A DNA stretch of 64,000 bases from a virus. Positions 4,197-59,796 of the stretch are shown here, piece by piece (position 1 is the stretch's first letter; the number at the start of each line of letters is the position of its first letter). Below the pieces are notes generated by a model. The model was not told the origin of the DNA. It ran no database searches and saw nothing but the letters and a program-made list of their open reading frames with translations. Location of the stretch: positions 1 through 64,000 of IMG/VR virus record IMGVR_UViG_3300022866_000322, one strand, 5' to 3'. The translations under genes were made by a program, and so were the position numbers.

Positions 4197-4628
4197 ATGT
4201 CAAAGATTTTATTTTTTCTATTGTTTATTCCCACATTGTTATTCTCAGCTGATCTTCATCAGATGAACGAAAATGATCTGGCACTAGATATTACGAACTC
4301 AGACACAGTACAAAATGGTCGAGAGTGGTACGACAGACGTTGTTCCTTCTGTCATGGTGGCCAAGGCAAAGGTGGCAAAGGTCCTTGCTTAACATGTGGC
4401 AAGTTTACATACAGTTCAAATACCAACATGGGTATATTCACAACCATTAGTGTGGGCATTACCAATCAGAGTTTAGGCGGCACAATGGGTGCATTTGGTA
4501 CAACCATTGACGGTATGGATATAGTTGCTATTGTAACTTACTTACGGTCAGAAGAAAGACGCAGAATTGAGTCTGGTGAAATTAAAGATCCATACATTGT
4601 GCAAGAACAGATGGTCTTCCCGGAATAA
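4197..4628 (+). CDS. Secreted monohaem cytochrome c, cytochrome cL (XoxG/MxaG)-like
   Basis: This 143 aa protein has a signal peptide (residues 1-18, cleavage near FSA) and one class I cytochrome c domain. Haem attachment is CSFCH at 49-53. Met97 in GGTMGAFG is a candidate sixth ligand. The order NG...RRCSFCHGG, GKGGKGP, TYSSNT, GIFTTI, G...MG recalls cytochrome cL, the electron acceptor of PQQ methanol dehydrogenases, in which CSGCHG is followed by a GP.L, a Y.SNT, a GLF.TI and an MMGP segment (recalled from memory). An extra CLTC pair at 64-67 is unusual. It would act in the periplasm. It could instead be a generic c-type carrier. Confidence 0.87.
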   Translation: MSKILFFLLFIPTLLFSADLHQMNENDLALDITNSDTVQNGREWYDRRCSFCHGGQGKGGKGPCLTCGKFTYSSNTNMGIFTTISVGITNQSLGGTMGAFGTTIDGMDIVAIVTYLRSEERRRIESGEIKDPYIVQEQMVFPE

Positions 4629-19624: not shown

Positions 19625-21715
19625 ATGAAAAAATGGTTAGTGGCGTTGATCGCCCTGGGTGCGGTATTGAGTATTAGGTGGACGGATCCGTGGATAGTAG
19701 AAGTTATCCGCCTCAAAGCACTGGACACACATCAACGTAGTGTCCCACAAGAAACAATTCAGTTAGACAGCGACATTCCTATTGCTGTGGTTAGAATAGA
19801 CAACGATGATATTGACCGCAACGGACAGTGGCCTTGGCCTCGTGACATACTAGCCAATGAAATTATACGACTATACGAGAATGGTGCGGGGCTTGTGGTA
19901 CTGCCCATGCTGTTTGCTGAGGAAGATCGCTTTGGTGGCGACCCTGCATTTATAGATTTGTTACAGAATGCACCTGTTATTGTTGGGCAAGTTCCTGCGC
20001 TGAGAGGCAAGGGTGTACCAGTACCACGTGGCATTGCTATTAAGGACAACAGCACAACAGGCAAAGCATGGGAAGATTGGCTATTCCGTTATGGACAAGC
20101 AATAGGTCCAACAAAAGAAATTGGTGAGAGTGCTTGGGGCGTTGGTATGATGTTGAGCAGTACAGAAGCTGATGGAGTTGTACGTAAACTTCCGCTTGTT
20201 GTTCGCATACCCAGCAAAGAGCCTACAGACAGCGCACAGATATTTCCCAGCATACCCACAGAGATTGTGCGTGTACTGGCAGGTGACATCAGTTACCAAA
20301 TGAAGCTGGGTGACGCAGGTGTGGAAGCAGTGCGTATCCCACAGTTTAGCACAATTAAGACAGACGCAAACGGTAGCATCTACGTAGACTACAAATACAA
20401 AGTACAGGAGTTTGCATTTGACAATTTGCCCAACTTCAATGGCGGTATTGTTATACTAAGTTTAACAGCGTCGGGGTTGGACAACACCATTGCAACTCCA
20501 GTTGGCAGAAGTTATGATCATGATTTAATTGCCGCAAGTGTTTACACAATAGTTAATGGTATCAACATAAGTCGCCCATGGTGGTCAGACCTTGGTGAAC
20601 TGGCAACAGCACTGGCAATAAGTTTGGTAGTAATGATACTGGTACTTAAACTAAACTGGTACTTTGGTGTTGGTGGCATTGTGGTATCATTAGGTGGCAT
20701 ATTCTACGGTAGTAGGACAGCATACTTGAACGATGGCTATTTGCTGGATTGGAGTTTCCCAATATTTGCAGTGTTCCTCACATGGAGTATAGCGGCATTC
20801 CTGCGCTTCATGGATGAGTTTAGACAAAAGCAAGAAATCAAAAAACAGTTTGCAGGCTATGCAAGTCCTACAGTGGTACGTATGCTTCAAGAGAATCCAG
20901 GTCTAATCAAGGATGGCATGAAGCGTGAAATCAGTATTTGTTTTAGTGACCTACGTGGCTTTACTCCACTAGGTGAAAGTTTTGGCGATGATGTAAAAGG
21001 ACTTACCAACTTGATGAACGGCTACATGGATGCTATTACGCAACCAGTACTGGATCGTGACGGAATGATCATAAAGTACATTGGTGATGCGTCAATGCAT
21101 GTACACAATGCACCCAACGATGATCCACGCCACCATCACTCAGCAGTTAAAACAGGATTGGACATGCTTACAGCAGTGGAAAAGTTCAATGATAAAATTG
21201 TAGCAGAAGGAAGACCACCGATTGGCATGGGTGCTGGCATTAATAGCGGACTAGGTTACTTGGGTGAAATGGGTAGTACGTCAAGACACAGTTATGATGT
21301 GTTAGGCGATGCTGTTAGTACTGCGGCACGTATTGAGAGCAAGTGTAAAGAATATGGATGTTTGTTACTTGTAGGCGAAACCACATACGATGCAACCAAG
21401 AATGATTTCTTTTACTTAAAGGTAGACGAACTTGCAGTAAAAGGTAAAACTGTGGGCATACGCATCTACACTGTACTAGGTGAAAAAGAACAAACAACTG
21501 CATGGCAAGCAAGCAAACAGTTACACATCGAAATGCATCAATATTATAGAGAGCAGAGTTTTAACAAAGCAATCACTTTATGCAACAAACTAAAAGGCTC
21601 ATTTGATGGACAAATAGATGGGTATTATGATATGTGGATTGAACGCTGTGAATATATGCTAACACAAGATCTACCTGCTGCCTGGGACGGAATATTTGTG
21701 GCTACAACCAAGTAG
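19625..21715 (+). CDS. CHASE2 sensor membrane protein with class III adenylate cyclase domain
   Basis: This 696 aa protein has an N-terminal anchor, a periplasmic CHASE2 domain (about 25-320; VVRIDNDDIDRNGQWPWPRD), three membrane helices (about 325-395) and a class III cyclase domain (about 425-620). The metal Asp residues are D442 (FSDLRGFT) and D488 (KYIGDAS). Lys484 and Asp558 at the purine-selecting positions suggest ATP as substrate, giving cAMP. Arg569 of the transition-state pair is kept, but the usual Asn is Ser565, which could lower activity. It follows the FecR and curlin-like genes and may sense their state at the surface. Confidence 0.93.
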   Translation: MKKWLVALIALGAVLSIRWTDPWIVEVIRLKALDTHQRSVPQETIQLDSDIPIAVVRIDNDDIDRNGQWPWPRDILANEIIRLYENGAGLVVLPMLFAEEDRFGGDPAFIDLLQNAPVIVGQVPALRGKGVPVPRGIAIKDNSTTGKAWEDWLFRYGQAIGPTKEIGESAWGVGMMLSSTEADGVVRKLPLVVRIPSKEPTDSAQIFPSIPTEIVRVLAGDISYQMKLGDAGVEAVRIPQFSTIKTDANGSIYVDYKYKVQEFAFDNLPNFNGGIVILSLTASGLDNTIATPVGRSYDHDLIAASVYTIVNGINISRPWWSDLGELATALAISLVVMILVLKLNWYFGVGGIVVSLGGIFYGSRTAYLNDGYLLDWSFPIFAVFLTWSIAAFLRFMDEFRQKQEIKKQFAGYASPTVVRMLQENPGLIKDGMKREISICFSDLRGFTPLGESFGDDVKGLTNLMNGYMDAITQPVLDRDGMIIKYIGDASMHVHNAPNDDPRHHHSAVKTGLDMLTAVEKFNDKIVAEGRPPIGMGAGINSGLGYLGEMGSTSRHSYDVLGDAVSTAARIESKCKEYGCLLLVGETTYDATKNDFFYLKVDELAVKGKTVGIRIYTVLGEKEQTTAWQASKQLHIEMHQYYREQSFNKAITLCNKLKGSFDGQIDGYYDMWIERCEYMLTQDLPAAWDGIFVATTK

Positions 21716-26394: not shown

Positions 26395-27628
26395 TACACA
26401 AATAACTGATATAGTAGACGGAATAGTAAAACAAGTAGAAGCAGGTGTAGCAAAAAAAGTTGATCAGTTAATAGCTGATTCAATTAAAGCTCGCTTATCT
26501 ACCTTTAACTTTACTGATGCAATCCAAAAAGCGGCCACAGAAGCACTGGATAGAAAAGCCTCCGAGTATAATGTTGATAGCAAAAAACTTGAAACACGTA
26601 TTTTTGACCGGATCAACGAGACTATTACGGAAGTACAAAAACAAACAGATCAAACTGTTAAAGAAACAGTGGCTCAACGTATCCAAGAAATAGACTTTGG
26701 TAAAGCAGTAGTTAACGCAACTAGTATAGTAGTCAAAGATCAATTGAATGAAGTTATATTTCCTGATTCAAGTATTAAACCTGAATCGTTAGATTTGTCT
26801 ACATTTAAGTTTAGTGGAGACAACATACACGGTGGTATAATCACAGAATTCAGCAGTACTGGTATCGACGATCGTGCTACCAACATTGCAGTTACTATAT
26901 TAGATGATGTAACAGTTGTTGAAAACAATTTGCTTACAAAAGATTTAACTGTACAAGGTAACGTAACCATAAATGGAACACTGGACAAGGATTGTAGTTT
27001 TTATCAAGAACTGATTGATACTACATCAACCAACACTGTTAGTAAACTTAACAAAACCTTATTTGATGGATTTAGTAAAACTGTGTTTAATACAATTAAA
27101 GACAAAGGACTTGACCTAAACAAAATAACCATAAACGGCAAAGATGTTGTTATTGGTAATGCACTAGGATCCAACATAACCAATAGTAATTTACAAGAAC
27201 TGGGTATGCTCAAAGAATTGCAAGTGTCCGGCGAAGCATTTTTGAGTGGATCATTGTATACTGTTAAGGGTCGCGTAGGCGTTAACACGTTTGAACCAAG
27301 TGCGGCGTTAGCAGTATGGGACCAAGAAATTGAAATTACTACAGGTAAGAAGGAAACAGACATAGGACGCATAGGAACTCCTAGGAAACAGTCGTTGGTG
27401 CTTAGTGCAAACAACAAAAACAATATTGTGTTAAACACAGACGGAAGTACAAAAGTTGACGATTTACGCATAGGGCAAGCCATGCGATTTACAGAAGGCA
27501 ATCGAGCGCCAAACTATGCCAGTACAAAAGGACATGTAGTCTGGAACAACAACCCTAGTCTTGGCGGACCAATGGGATGGATCTGTTTAGGGTTAGCCAA
27601 CTGGGCAAACTTTGGCATAATTGACTAG
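26384..27628 (+). CDS. Fibre-like virion protein
   Basis: The ATG start at 26384 is preferred over TTG at 26372. The product of 414 aa has an N-terminal coiled coil (VDGIVKQVEAGVAKKVDQLI), then beta-repeat segments (VTILDDVTVVENNLLTKDLTVQGNVTINGTL) typical of trimeric tail fibres. A C-terminal tip domain (GHVVWNNNPSLGGPMGW) completes it. It probably takes part in host recognition or baseplate-linked fibres. The radical SAM gene starts on its stop codon. Confidence 0.75.
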   Translation: MDLNTQITDIVDGIVKQVEAGVAKKVDQLIADSIKARLSTFNFTDAIQKAATEALDRKASEYNVDSKKLETRIFDRINETITEVQKQTDQTVKETVAQRIQEIDFGKAVVNATSIVVKDQLNEVIFPDSSIKPESLDLSTFKFSGDNIHGGIITEFSSTGIDDRATNIAVTILDDVTVVENNLLTKDLTVQGNVTINGTLDKDCSFYQELIDTTSTNTVSKLNKTLFDGFSKTVFNTIKDKGLDLNKITINGKDVVIGNALGSNITNSNLQELGMLKELQVSGEAFLSGSLYTVKGRVGVNTFEPSAALAVWDQEIEITTGKKETDIGRIGTPRKQSLVLSANNKNNIVLNTDGSTKVDDLRIGQAMRFTEGNRAPNYASTKGHVVWNNNPSLGGPMGWICLGLANWANFGIID

Positions 27629-33982: not shown

Positions 33983-35545
33983 ATGAATACTATACTTGGC
34001 CGCATGGCTTCCCTTAAGAATGATACACTATCCGGTTTAACAGTTGCACTAGCATTAGTTCCAGAAGCAGTTGCTTTTGCATTTGTTGCAGGAGTTGGAC
34101 CACTGGTAGGACTTTACGCCGCTTTTATTGTAGGATTAATCACAGCAGTTATGGGCGGTAGACCCGGAATGATCAGTGGAGCAACAGGAGCACTAGCAGT
34201 GGTTATGGTGGCACTGGTTGCGAATCACGGTGTTGAATATTTGTTTGCCACTGTGGTTCTCATGGGCATGATTCAGATACTTGCAGGCGCACTCAAAGCA
34301 GGTAAACTGATACGCATAGTACCTTACCCTGTTATGCTGGGTTTTGTTAATGGACTTGCTATTGTTATCTTCCTAGCACAGTTAAAACAGTTTGGTGTAG
34401 ATGGTGAACCTGGATGGTTAGCCAACACATTCCTAGCAGGATCAATTGTTGACGTAGCATGGTTACAAGGATCAACCATGTACTTGCTGTTGGCTCTGAT
34501 TGGTGTAACCATGTTGATAATTCAGTACTTGCCACGACTAACAGGAGCAATACCTTCGTCACTGGGAGCAATACTGGTTGTGTCTATTTTGGTTTGGGCA
34601 TTTGCGCTGGACACAAGAGTAGTAGGAGACATTGCAAGTATCAGTGGCGGATTACCTAGTTTCCATATACCAGCAGTTCCTTTTAACTTCGAAACACTTA
34701 TGATTATTTGGCCTTACTCAGTTGTGTTGGCCGCTATAGGATTGATTGAATCTTTGCTCACACTTCGCCTAATAGATGAAATGACACAAACACGTGGGCG
34801 TGGCAACAAAGAGTGTGTAGCGCAAGGTGTTGCTAACACTGTTACAGGGTTCTTTGGTGGTATGGGTGGTTGTGCAATGATTGGACAGAGCATGATCAAC
34901 ATCACATCAGGCGGACGTGGACGTTGGTCTGGTATAAGTGCTAGTCTGTTCCTGCTGTTGTTTATACTAGCGGCGGCACCACTTATCGAACAGATACCAA
35001 TTGCGGCACTGTTGGGTGTTATGTTTATTGTGGTAATTAAAACATTTGAATGGTCCAGTTTTCGTATAATCAAACGTGTACCACGTAGCGATGCATTTGT
35101 GTTGATAACTGTGAGTGCTGTTACAGTGTTTACTGACCTGGCATTTGCTGTTATGGTTGGTGTTATTATAAGTGCATTGGTATTCAGTTGGCAACATGCC
35201 AAACACATTAGTGTTACAGCACGTGAGAATCACTACGGTAGTACAGTATACGCAGTGCATGGTCCTTTGTACTTTGGATCAGTAACATCATTCTTAGAAG
35301 GCTTTAATCCTAGCAAGGATAACAATCATGTTGTGATTGATTTTGCTGACAGCAGAGTTATTGACCACTCAGGACTAGAAGCAATTGATACACTAAGCGA
35401 ACGTTACATAAGCGCAAACAAAAAACTATCCCTAGTGCATCTCAGCCCAGACTGCAAGCAGTTGTTAGAACGTGCAGGCAATCTAGTTGAAATAAATGTT
35501 ATCGAAGATCCTAACTACTTTGTAGCAGAAGACAAACTGGACTAA
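33983..35545 (+). CDS. SulP family anion transporter with STAS domain
   Basis: This 520 aa protein has the SulP transmembrane core (about residues 15-395; [78 protein letters not shown]) and a C-terminal STAS domain (about 408-505; [20 protein letters not shown]). The family carries sulfate, bicarbonate or similar anions at the inner membrane. It is complete. A whole ion transporter is an unusual cargo for a phage. Substrate cannot be told from sequence. Confidence 0.93.
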
Positions 35546-42687: not shown

Positions 42688-42712
42688 AAAAGGGCCTCTG
42701 GGCCCTTTTCTA
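42688..42712 (+). terminator. Intrinsic terminator
   Basis: AAAAGGGCC pairs with GGCCCTTTT around TCTG. Confidence 0.85.
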
Positions 42713-42740
42713 GTAAATACAAGTTATTGCTGTATGAAGT

Positions 42741-42990
<250 letters not shown>

Positions 42991-43016
42991 GCAGGGCTTT
43001 CGGGCCCTGCTTTTTC
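42991..43016 (+). terminator. tmRNA terminator
   Basis: GCAGGGC pairs with GCCCTGC around TTTCGG, followed by TTTTTC. Confidence 0.85.
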
Positions 43017-43035
43017 TTTAGTTCTAGGATTTAAA

Positions 43036-43512
43036 ATGGCTATAGCGATGCAATCATTACCATATGTTTATAAACTACCCGATGGTACATATATTCACGT
43101 TACTATGCGACAGTATGGCGGTATTGCGTTAAGTGGAGAAGCACTTGAGGACTTTAACAGTGACATGGCTAGATTAAACGTAGTAGAAAAGGCCCATTTA
43201 GGCAAATACCAAGTACAAAGAGAAACAATAGAAGGAACCGTTAACATAAACGGACAGTCTTACCCTAAAGTACCACTATTAAAATCTACGTATCCTAATG
43301 AATCAGAGTTGCCAGACTTCAGTGATGATTACTTTAGTATTATGTGGAAATGGGGTACTATAATGACACAAGACCCCAATATTAGGTACCATGCTCCAGG
43401 AGCATCAGGTAATAGTTACGTCAATGAAAAAGATCCCTGCATCAAAGAAGTTGGCACATATGGCGACAAGCATAAAATGTGTACATGGTCAACTATTACT
43501 AATGTACAGTAA
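43036..43512 (+). CDS. Hypothetical protein (158 aa)
   Basis: Beta-rich soluble protein (YKLPDGTYIHVTMRQYGGIALSG), with Pro/Asn-rich C-terminal half. Probably structural-type but not recognised. It precedes a gene with a late promoter. Confidence 0.55.
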   Translation: MAIAMQSLPYVYKLPDGTYIHVTMRQYGGIALSGEALEDFNSDMARLNVVEKAHLGKYQVQRETIEGTVNINGQSYPKVPLLKSTYPNESELPDFSDDYFSIMWKWGTIMTQDPNIRYHAPGASGNSYVNEKDPCIKEVGTYGDKHKMCTWSTITNVQ

Positions 43513-55481: not shown

Positions 55482-55511
55482 AAAGGGCGGCGCAATGTCG
55501 CCCTTTTTTAT
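55482..55511 (+). terminator. Intrinsic terminator, copy A of a repeated element
   Basis: AAAGGGCG pairs with CGCCCTTT around GCGCAATGT, then a T-run. The 34 bases from 55483 to 55516 recur exactly at 56721-56754. Confidence 0.85.
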
Positions 55512-55531
55512 TGACTTTTTTACCAAAAAGA

Positions 55532-56720: not shown

Positions 56721-56748
56721 AAGGGCGGCGCAATGTCGCCCTTTTTTA
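56721..56748 (+). terminator. Intrinsic terminator, copy B
   Basis: Same hairpin as at 55482. The repeated unit continues through TTGACT, which here is the -35 of the next promoter. Confidence 0.85.
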
Positions 56749-56777
56749 TTGACTAACCATTTTAATACAAGTATAAT
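56749..56777 (+). promoter_or_regulatory. Sigma70-like promoter of the phosphomannomutase gene
   Basis: TTGACT (56749-56754), 17 bp, TATAAT (56772-56777); the ATG follows 6 bases later. Confidence 0.75.
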
Positions 56778-56783
56778 CATATT

Positions 56784-57476
56784 ATGAATTATGTATTTGA
56801 TGTGGACGGCACACTTACCCCTAGCCGTAGTACAATGTATGGCCCATTTAAGGGTTGGTTCCTGGATTGGATCAAACACAAGAACGTGTACTTGATCACC
56901 GGAAGTGATTACGCTAAAACAGTAGAGCAGATTGGTGAAGATGTGGCCCACAGTGTGAACGCAGTTTACAATTGTGCTGGTAATAGCATATATGTACGTG
57001 GACAACTGGTTCACAAAAGTGACTGGCGCATAGGCGGAGATCTTGAACTATTTTTAAACGAATGGCTCGAATATAGCGCATATCCGACCCGTACAGGCAC
57101 ACATATTGAACACAGGATAGGTCTGTGTAACTTTAGTGTAGTAGGGCGCGGAGCAGACAAAACACAACGTACAGACTATGTAAAATGGGATACAGACAAC
57201 GGCGAGCGGTATGAAATAGCAGAAGCCATAACCAAGATGTTCCCGGACATAGATGCCACAGTAGCAGGTGAAACAGGCATAGACATTTACCAAAAAGGCA
57301 AAGACAAAGCTCAGGTTGCTGATGTGCTGTCGCCGTTTGTGTTCTTTGGTGACAAGACCGACCCAGGTGGCAATGACCATACCATTAGTTTACGTGCAGA
57401 AAAAGTTCACAGTGTGACCAGCTTTAGTGACACGTGGGAGATATTGCGTCTCAACTACTCTACAGAAAATACGTAG
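56784..57476 (+). CDS. Eukaryotic-type phosphomannomutase-like HAD protein
   Basis: This 230 aa protein has HAD motif I FDVDGTLTPSR, the cap-domain motif FSVVGRGADKTQRTDYVKWD, and FFGDKTDPGGNDHTI, which match PMM2-type phosphomannomutases (GDKT.PGGNDHEI). It would convert mannose-6-P to mannose-1-P for GDP-mannose. Together with the NeuD-like gene and glycosyltransferases it may serve glycan synthesis. Alternatively it is another HAD phosphatase. Confidence 0.82.
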   Translation: MNYVFDVDGTLTPSRSTMYGPFKGWFLDWIKHKNVYLITGSDYAKTVEQIGEDVAHSVNAVYNCAGNSIYVRGQLVHKSDWRIGGDLELFLNEWLEYSAYPTRTGTHIEHRIGLCNFSVVGRGADKTQRTDYVKWDTDNGERYEIAEAITKMFPDIDATVAGETGIDIYQKGKDKAQVADVLSPFVFFGDKTDPGGNDHTISLRAEKVHSVTSFSDTWEILRLNYSTENT

Positions 57477-57542: not shown

Positions 57543-57563
57543 GTGTTAGAGACGTTCTAACAC
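57543..57563 (+). promoter_or_regulatory. Hairpin in the pqqA leader
   Basis: GTGTTAGA pairs with TCTAACAC around GACGT, 31 bases before the pqqA ATG. Confidence 0.55.
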
Positions 57564-57594
57564 GATTATGAAACAACCTCAGAGGAGAATTACT

Positions 57595-57666
57595 ATGTGG
57601 ACAAAACCAGAATATACAGAAATGCGTTATGGCTTCGAAGTGACAATGTATTTTGCTAACCGCTAA
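57595..57666 (+). CDS. pqqA: PqqA, precursor peptide of the cofactor PQQ
   Basis: A 23-residue peptide starting [13 protein letters not shown] and ending [11 protein letters not shown]. This is the PqqA pattern M.W.KP.[YF]......GFEVT.Y. Glu15 and Tyr19 are the residues that PqqE links and the Pqq enzymes turn into PQQ. AGAGGAGAAT sits at the right distance from the ATG; an in-frame ATG at 57568 would add 9 residues but has no ribosome site. The unit ends in its own terminator. The window holds no pqqB-E, so host enzymes would be needed. The short form resembles beta/gammaproteobacterial PqqA more than the longer alphaproteobacterial form (recalled from memory). Confidence 0.9.
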
Positions 57667-57692
57667 TATACATTAATTTTTGAAGAAACAAA

Positions 57693-57719
57693 AAGTGCTC
57701 ACTTCGGTGGGCATTTTTA
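57693..57719 (+). terminator. Terminator after pqqA
   Basis: AGTGCTCAC pairs with GTGGGCATT (with G-T pairs) around a TTCG tetraloop, followed by a T-run. Confidence 0.85.
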
Positions 57720-57761
57720 TTGACATTGGGTTTTGAAATAACGATTGGGATAAATAAATGT

Positions 57762-58232
57762 ATGAAACATATACATCACATTATTCCAAAATATCTAGGC
57801 GGCACTGACGATCCCGGAAACCTAGTAGAACTCACTGTAAACGACCACGCAGAAGCACACCGTAAGTTATATGAAGAACACAATAATTGGCAAGACTATT
57901 GCGCATGGCAAGCATTATCGGGTCGAATAGGCAAAGAGGAAATACTACGTATGAAACAAGGAATGGCAAACAAAGGACGCAAACGGACACCTGAACAACT
58001 GAAACGTATGTCAGAAGCACAATTGAAACGTGTCGCAAGAAACCGTGCCGACGGAACACTAGAACGTACTAGAAAGAAGCAAAGTGAAGCCCACAAAGGT
58101 AAAAAGAAATCCCCAGAGCATATGAAGAATTGGTCCGAGTCACGTAAGGGACACAAAGTCAGTGAAGACACCCGTGAAAAAATTAGGAAAACTTTGGCAG
58201 AAACTAGAGCCAAATTGGCTTTACAAAAATAG
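57762..58232 (+). CDS. HNH homing endonuclease with NUMOD3-like repeats
   Basis: The ATG at 57762 gives 156 aa. HHIIPKYLGGTDDPGNLVELTVNDHAEAH is an HNH nuclease core. The tail has repeats KGRKRTPEQLKRMSEAQLKR, HKGKKKSPEHMKNWSESRKG, HKVSEDTREKIRK, as in NUMOD3. It is a free-standing selfish nuclease directly next to pqqA. The GATAAATAAAT motif upstream may be a late promoter. Confidence 0.85.
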   Translation: MKHIHHIIPKYLGGTDDPGNLVELTVNDHAEAHRKLYEEHNNWQDYCAWQALSGRIGKEEILRMKQGMANKGRKRTPEQLKRMSEAQLKRVARNRADGTLERTRKKQSEAHKGKKKSPEHMKNWSESRKGHKVSEDTREKIRKTLAETRAKLALQK

Positions 58233-58370: not shown

Positions 58371-59072
58371 ATGAAACCAATTGTATTTGTTGGACACAGA
58401 CAAAATCTACATGATGTTCAGATGGTTGCAAAAGCCTGCAACAGACAAGTTGTGGGCCTATTAGACAAATACTTTTATGGCAACACAGACTCTGTATGTG
58501 GTGTTCCTGTGATAGGTGCAGACAGCATGCTAGAGGATACAGCATTCGTTGAAGATCATGATTTTTTCTTAACGTCTTGGTGGACCGGAAACGAAAACCT
58601 AAACAACCCAGAGCATTCAGGTGATAATTTACGCAAGACCAGAATAGATCTATTAGATCAACATGGGATTAAGTGTACTAATTTAATACATCCTAGCTGT
58701 ATAAGGATTGAGAGCAGTAAACTTGGTAATGGTATTATAGCAATGCCGCATACCGCAATAACAGATAATTGTGTTATTGGTGACTATACTGTAGTTGATT
58801 GGTATGCTCTAGTAGGGCATGATTGCAGTATTGGGCGTAATGTTATCATAGGTGCAAGAGCAACACTAGCAGGTGGTATTACTGTAGAAGATAACGTTAG
58901 GATAGGATTAAGTGCTACTGTGGTAGAAGGGCATGAACGAGACATAACACTGCACAAAAACAGTAAAATCTGGGCAGGAGCAGTTGTGTTTGACAGTGTT
59001 CCCGAGGACGCTAATTATACACACAATCATCGCATACTAAAAAGAATCAACAAGGAAAATCAAGATGTTTAA
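58371..59072 (+). CDS. NeuD-like sugar O/N-acyltransferase
   Basis: This 233 aa protein has an N-terminal Rossmann-like domain and a C-terminal left-handed beta helix of hexapeptide repeats (VIGDYTVVDWYALVGHDCSIGRNVIIGARATLAGGITV...VRIGLSATV). This is the NeuD/PglD plan. It would transfer an acyl group to an amino- or sialic-type sugar. It overlaps the next gene by 8 bases. Confidence 0.82.
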   Translation: MKPIVFVGHRQNLHDVQMVAKACNRQVVGLLDKYFYGNTDSVCGVPVIGADSMLEDTAFVEDHDFFLTSWWTGNENLNNPEHSGDNLRKTRIDLLDQHGIKCTNLIHPSCIRIESSKLGNGIIAMPHTAITDNCVIGDYTVVDWYALVGHDCSIGRNVIIGARATLAGGITVEDNVRIGLSATVVEGHERDITLHKNSKIWAGAVVFDSVPEDANYTHNHRILKRINKENQDV

Positions 59073-59796
59073 AGAACGTGTAACTTGGACCCATCACTGG
59101 GGCGACAAAACATTTAGTTTTCGCACAACCAGGAATCAATCATTTAGGTTCAATGCTGGCGAGTTTGCCATGATTGGATTGGAAGCAGATGGAAAGAAAA
59201 TACTACGTGCGTACAGTATTGCCAGCGCACCATGGGAAGAAGAACTAGAATGGCTGAGTGTTAAGGTCCAAGACGGTGAACTGACTGGCAAACTGCAACA
59301 TCTTAAAGAAGGTGACGAGGTTATCATCATGCCCAAGTGTGTGGGCACACTACGTAACGAAGCACTCACACCAGGTGGTACACTGTGGATGTTAGCCACG
59401 GGTACTGGACTCGCTCCTTTTATGAGCCTAATACGTGATGTGGATACACTGGAACAATGGGACCAGATTAATATTGTACACAGTGTTAGACACAGATCAG
59501 AACTTGCGTACTATAAACAGTTAAACACCAACTTCATTGACACAGACATACACGAAATGGTAGCACCAGTATTGAAGTATCGTCCAATTGTTACAGGCGA
59601 GGGCGATGAAAGAATCACAGTGAAACTGTGGAGAGAAACACTACCTGTGCGCAATGATGATAAGGTTATGATCTGTGGCAACATGCGTTTCAACGAAGAC
59701 ATGATTAAATGGTGTAAGCACATGGGCATGTCAGAAGGCACACTTAAGAACCCAGGCGGGTATGTGCTAGAACGAGCCTTTATTGACCCGTCGTAA
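59065..59796 (+). CDS. fpr: Ferredoxin/flavodoxin-NADP+ reductase
   Basis: This 243 aa protein has the FAD site RAYSIASAPWEEELEWLSVKV, the GKLQHLKEGD turn, and the NADP-binding WMLATGTGLAPFMSLI, and ends YVLERAFIDPS as Fpr proteins do. It moves electrons between NADPH and ferredoxin or flavodoxin. In this window it could reduce the Fe-S clusters of the radical SAM proteins, one of which is encoded nearby. Its 3' end overlaps a converging gene by 17 bases. Confidence 0.88.
   Translation: MFKERVTWTHHWGDKTFSFRTTRNQSFRFNAGEFAMIGLEADGKKILRAYSIASAPWEEELEWLSVKVQDGELTGKLQHLKEGDEVIIMPKCVGTLRNEALTPGGTLWMLATGTGLAPFMSLIRDVDTLEQWDQINIVHSVRHRSELAYYKQLNTNFIDTDIHEMVAPVLKYRPIVTGEGDERITVKLWRETLPVRNDDKVMICGNMRFNEDMIKWCKHMGMSEGTLKNPGGYVLERAFIDPS

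Follow-up and report, generated by a model that had tools for sequence, protein, structure and literature searches.

The pqqA Locus

The window analysed here, i.e., positions 1 to 64,000 of the IMG/VR virus record IMGVR_UViG_3300022866_000322, carries on its plus strand a frame of 23 codons that is a real gene for PqqA, the peptide precursor of PQQ. The gene and its expression signals are as follows:

57543–57563, plus strand: leader hairpin, 8 perfect pairs with a loop of 5 (−9.4 kcal/mol, z −3.6)
57581–57588, plus strand: ribosome-binding site of pqqA, AGAGGAGA, directly 5′ of the ATG (from the sequence)
57595–57666, plus strand: pqqA, PQQ precursor peptide, 23 codons (PF08042 and TIGR02107)
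57691–57718, plus strand: intrinsic terminator of pqqA, 12-pair stem with a U-rich 3′ arm and tail (from folding)

The identity of the peptide, first proposed in a sequence-only reading of the window, was borne out by profile searches. Pfam PF08042 matched the frame with 37.8 bits (cut-off 21.1, E 1.8e-9), and the NCBIfam equivalog TIGR02107 did so with 45.9 bits (cut-off 20, E 3.4e-12). Across the whole record of 221,342 bases, this frame was the single match to TIGR02107 (E 1.2e-11); thus, it did not arise by chance. The residues cross-linked in PqqA, numbered Glu16 and Tyr20 in M. extorquens (PMC10906245), correspond to Glu15 and Tyr19 here, and the E-x3-Y spacing noticed in that reading is indeed present.

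The good ribosome site, the leader hairpin and the gene's own terminator, all described in the same reading, were found as well. The terminator region (57664–57725) folds with −14.9 kcal/mol (z −4.6), and both pqqA and its terminator are kept at 87% DNA identity in a relative (L029), where they lie in a different gene neighbourhood. The leader hairpin is terminator-like on the minus strand only; since it has no U-run on the plus strand, it is not a terminator in that direction. A riboswitch in the leader was rejected, as nothing in Rfam scored above the gathering score.

Two identical 34-base elements (55483–55516 and 56721–56754) each consist of an intrinsic terminator joined to a −35 box, and TTGACA comes after the pqqA terminator. 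Such an arrangement suggests that each gene of this region is transcribed as a unit of its own. The genes near pqqA include a phosphomannomutase-like gene (56784–57476), one for an FAD/NAD oxidoreductase (59065–59796) and, directly 3′, an HNH endonuclease gene (57759–58232); in most other phages, no such gene was seen next to pqqA.

Distribution of pqqA among Viruses

A tblastn search of 50,697 phage records found 12, two of them bacterial contigs: the two Acinetobacter "phage MD-2021a" records (L007, L010) carry pqqABCDE, look like parts of a bacterial chromosome and were set aside. The ten phage records are those of MEP401, MEP402, MEP301, Venkman, P19250A, four Melnitz isolates and the uncultured ctXG6705. 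Several of these were isolated as phages of methanol-oxidising bacteria. Not one of the ten records annotates pqqA; the Melnitz (L008) and ctXG6705 (L004) records have a hypothetical protein annotated over it on the opposite strand. The taxonomy has names for further Methylophilales phages (e.g., MEP431–434), and the ten records are not taken to speak for all phages.

In IMG/VR, solitary pqqA was recovered from at least 598 contigs (confirmed relatives). About 40 viral contigs carry PqqA of the gammaproteobacterial type, and four that of the alphaproteobacterial type. None of the viral flanks examined, which are often short, contains pqqB–E, while 44 of 73 bacterial loci have these genes near pqqA; contamination of the viral contigs with host DNA was rejected on this comparison. 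Conservation in other phages, which the sequence-only reading had named as a check, is therefore seen among these contigs and the ten phage records, but it does not extend to 22 portal relatives, in whose records (many being fragments) pqqA was not found. Such a distribution marks pqqA as an accessory gene and not a core one.

A Cytochrome Probably of the Same Pathway

A second gene of the window probably bears on alcohol oxidation:

4197–4628, plus strand: monohaem cytochrome c, XoxG/cytochrome cL-like, predicted to be exported, 143 aa (CSFCH motif, PDB matches, identity to the homologue of the presumed host)

The sequence-only reading had called this protein cytochrome cL-like, and rightly so: it has the haem motif CSFCH at residues 49–53, and its best PDB matches are of the cytochrome cL/XoxG type (2d0w, 2c8s), with cytochrome cL as the best. 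Its hydrophobic N-terminus, MSKILFFLLFIPTLLFSA, was read by eye as an export signal, so the phage protein is predicted to share with cytochrome cL and XoxG the character of a monohaem exported cytochrome. Unlike MoxG, it falls short of the TIGR03872 equivalog cut-off (41.4 vs. 147.8 bits), as does its bacterial homologue (33.6 bits). The predicted structure had a pLDDT of 41.5, too low for use.

The phage cytochrome is 66–70% identical to the cytochrome of a betaproteobacterial PQQ alcohol dehydrogenase operon. The best matches in a set of 14 bacterial genomes (70–73% across residues 16–143) came from five small betaproteobacterial MAGs, including TMED22, UBA3031 and one North Sea MAG. In one MAG (G036), the gene order is PQQ alcohol dehydrogenase (TIGR03075, 550.9 bits), XoxJ-like protein and cytochrome, and the same order recurs in another (G038); the bacterial homologue thus adjoins both a dehydrogenase and a XoxJ-like gene. 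The MAG dehydrogenase has DYD at the catalytic aspartate, a feature shared by the aligned XoxF but not by the ethanol dehydrogenase 1flg, which aligns there with DFS. An extra Asp in a PQQ alcohol dehydrogenase is a mark of lanthanide use. The link to PQQ-dependent alcohol oxidation drawn from the sequence alone gains support from these relatives of the cytochrome, whose operon encodes a PQQ alcohol dehydrogenase and whose bacterial carriers possess pqqABCDE.

Thirteen viral contigs carry a cytochrome of the phage type. It was not found in the 46 other virus and phage records searched, which are either pqqA carriers or portal relatives; hence, the pairing of pqqA with the cytochrome has so far been found only in this virus.

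The Virus and Its Probable Host

The virus is a large T4-like phage, and pqqA lies in the viral genome and not in contaminating host DNA. The T4-like identity is based on three proteins encoded in the record, i.e., the Gp23 major capsid protein (329.9 bits), a T4-like portal and a T4-like DNA polymerase; a search for terminase PF03237 gave no match. The record also encodes ribonucleotide reductase and DNA ligase. Outside this record, pqqA occurs in isolated phages as well. A chimera is unlikely, since a second assembly, which comes from a different metagenome (L019), agrees with the record at 100% identity across 8 kb. Neither pqqE nor its product was matched in the 221-kb record. A PQQ alcohol dehydrogenase encoded by the phage was rejected too: the search of the virus record came back empty, though the same search was positive in bacterial genomes.

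For the host, a further gene of the window served as a marker:

33983–35545, plus strand: SulP-type sulfate permease (Pfam Sulfate_transp)

The closest permeases, with 77–78% identity, come from four of the marine betaproteobacterial MAGs named above (five in all), and elsewhere among the 14 genomes identity over long matches does not exceed 45%. These MAGs have pqqABCDE, most of them with at least two copies of pqqA, as well as PQQ alcohol dehydrogenases. Since the closest cytochrome, the closest sulfate permease and pqqABCDE all occur in this clade, small marine betaproteobacteria are the probable host; as for the phage itself, the assignment draws on two genes, the cytochrome and the permease. 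The best bacterial DNA match to the phage pqqA (63 of 72 positions) came from a marine gammaproteobacterium, and the presumed host clade stayed below 58 of 72. Thus, the phage pqqA is no recent copy from that clade.

A Proposed Role for Phage PqqA

Taken together, the two genes make it quite likely that the phage supplies, in PqqA, the consumed precursor for PQQ synthesis by the host, and that its cytochrome takes up the electrons of the dehydrogenase. Herein, we infer the host, the expression of the gene, the conversion of the peptide to PQQ and the benefit to the phage. As a short transcription unit of its own, pqqA would yield the peptide in quantity during infection. The peptide would then enter the host pathway, where PqqD would bind it and PqqE would cross-link Glu15 to Tyr19, and a host protease, PqqB and PqqC would complete PQQ. 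One PqqA is spent per PQQ, while PqqE, PqqD, PqqB and PqqC are reused; because of this, PqqA should be the first component to fail once the phage shuts down host genes, and 72 bases might suffice to repair the loss. The PQQ formed would keep the lanthanide-type alcohol dehydrogenase of the host charged, the substrate being methanol or another alcohol, and the phage cytochrome might provide an added electron outlet by carrying the electrons of this enzyme to the respiratory chain.

Copy numbers in bacteria point in the same direction. Methylophilaceae have a median of four pqqA copies, with at least two in 96 of 100 genomes, and even genomes of 1.1–1.4 Mb still have a median of three; five copies have been described in one methylotroph strain (PMC9851590). 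So many copies suggest that the supply of PqqA is probably limiting. Overexpression of a partial operon led to more PQQ (PMC7936290), and, according to a result quoted in PMC9851590, a cell extract turned 70–80% of added PqqA into PQQ.

One might suppose instead that the viral peptide is a decoy, which occupies PqqD and PqqE, lowers PQQ and so shuts down host respiration. A lone substrate peptide that comes with no enzymes would also suit a competitor, and phages often inhibit host functions. However, this peptide passes the equivalog cut-off, and not one of the 173 distinct viral genes has lost the Glu or the Tyr of the cross-link, although the search motifs largely fixed these positions; a decoy would have no need to keep these residues. 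Moreover, the same phage encodes a respiratory cytochrome of the very pathway to be blocked. We therefore consider a decoy improbable.

Even less probable, in our opinion, is that pqqA is a functionless passenger acquired by chance, perhaps moved together with the neighbouring HNH endonuclease gene. The patchy occurrence among portal relatives and the HNH gene directly 3′ of pqqA would fit such an origin, as would the observation that the DNA similarity of otherwise different phages can be limited to the pqqA unit. Nevertheless, the viral copies bear signs of purifying selection and intact expression signals. Trp2 and Pro5, both outside the search motifs, are invariant among the 173 distinct genes, and pN/pS is 0.40 outside the motif and 0.06 inside, where the search fixed most residues. 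A ribosome site precedes every one of the 183 distinct viral pqqA genes, as against 55% of control ORFs, and a terminator follows within 80 bases in 87 of the 183, as against 8% of control ORFs and 2% of shuffled sequence. It is also hard to reconcile a passenger with pqqA in ten sequenced phage records of several lineages, mostly with no HNH gene at its side.

Finally, radical SAM proteins encoded at 27628, 44001, 53434 and 60725 in the window might be thought to turn the peptide into a product other than PQQ, which we find the least credible idea of all, given that three of them belong to the N_Twi family, that the virus record has no PqqE match and that isolated OM43 phages share the peptide with no radical SAM gene annotated near it.

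Returning to precursor supply, we incline on balance to see in it a general strategy that evolved repeatedly, represented by the solitary pqqA of most OM43/LD28 methylotroph phages and of some phages with pqqA of the gamma- or alphaproteobacterial type. The phage described here would be special in coupling pqqA to an electron acceptor.

Comparison with Known Systems

The sequence-only reading knew of no characterised phage pqqA. In fact, the gene is common, not isolated, and was already reported in 2020 from Lake Baikal, where VP_266 and VP_139 are T4-like Methylophilaceae phages with pqqA (VP_266) and a methanol dehydrogenase, which were suggested to enhance the oxidation of methanol (PMC7678222). 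A reservoir study of 2026 placed viral pqqA among phosphorus genes (PMC13188868). A word search of papers on Venkman, Melnitz and OM43 phages (PMC8163748, PMC9004378, PMC8024684, PMC10580990) met no mention of pqqA as a phage gene. Within the open-licence literature, three things appear to be new, namely how widely viral pqqA occurs, a gene set limited to the precursor and the pairing of pqqA with a cytochrome.

Our phage resembles Lake Baikal VP_266 in being T4-like and in carrying pqqA. Unlike the Lake Baikal phages, it has no dehydrogenase that we could find, only the precursor and the cytochrome, and its presumed host belongs to another betaproteobacterial clade. Bacterial pqqA, including the solitary copies of methylotrophs, is of the same family and length, has the same reacting residues and likewise occurs as stand-alone genes; the phage gene differs in that its carrier is a virus in which no other pqq gene was found. 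A likeness may also be drawn to cyanophage psbA, through which a phage provides a host energy pathway with a component that is quickly lost, relying on the host for the rest. However, psbA encodes a protein subunit, whereas the predicted product of the phage pqqA is a cofactor precursor peptide.

In both seas and lakes, methanol-oxidising plankton carry out an important step of one-carbon cycling. If the phages of these organisms routinely carry pqqA, a gene of 72 bases that standard gene callers miss, the alcohol oxidation of an infected cell may be under direct phage control. It is tempting to propose a rule for auxiliary genes, by which the phage carries the part that is consumed and not the machine. 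Cultured phage–host pairs exist for Venkman, Melnitz, MEP301 and MEP401, which makes the idea testable.

Other Features of the Virus

A tmRNA gene lies at 42697–43042; ARAGORN marks it with an asterisk (permuted form) and gives the tag ANENSYFEEFALAA. Melnitz is known to have a two-piece tmRNA (PMC9004378). At 19625–21715, a CHASE2 domain is fused to an adenylate/guanylate cyclase domain, which is unusual for a phage. A minus-strand open frame of the same virus (L016:8830–19977) is 3715 residues long.
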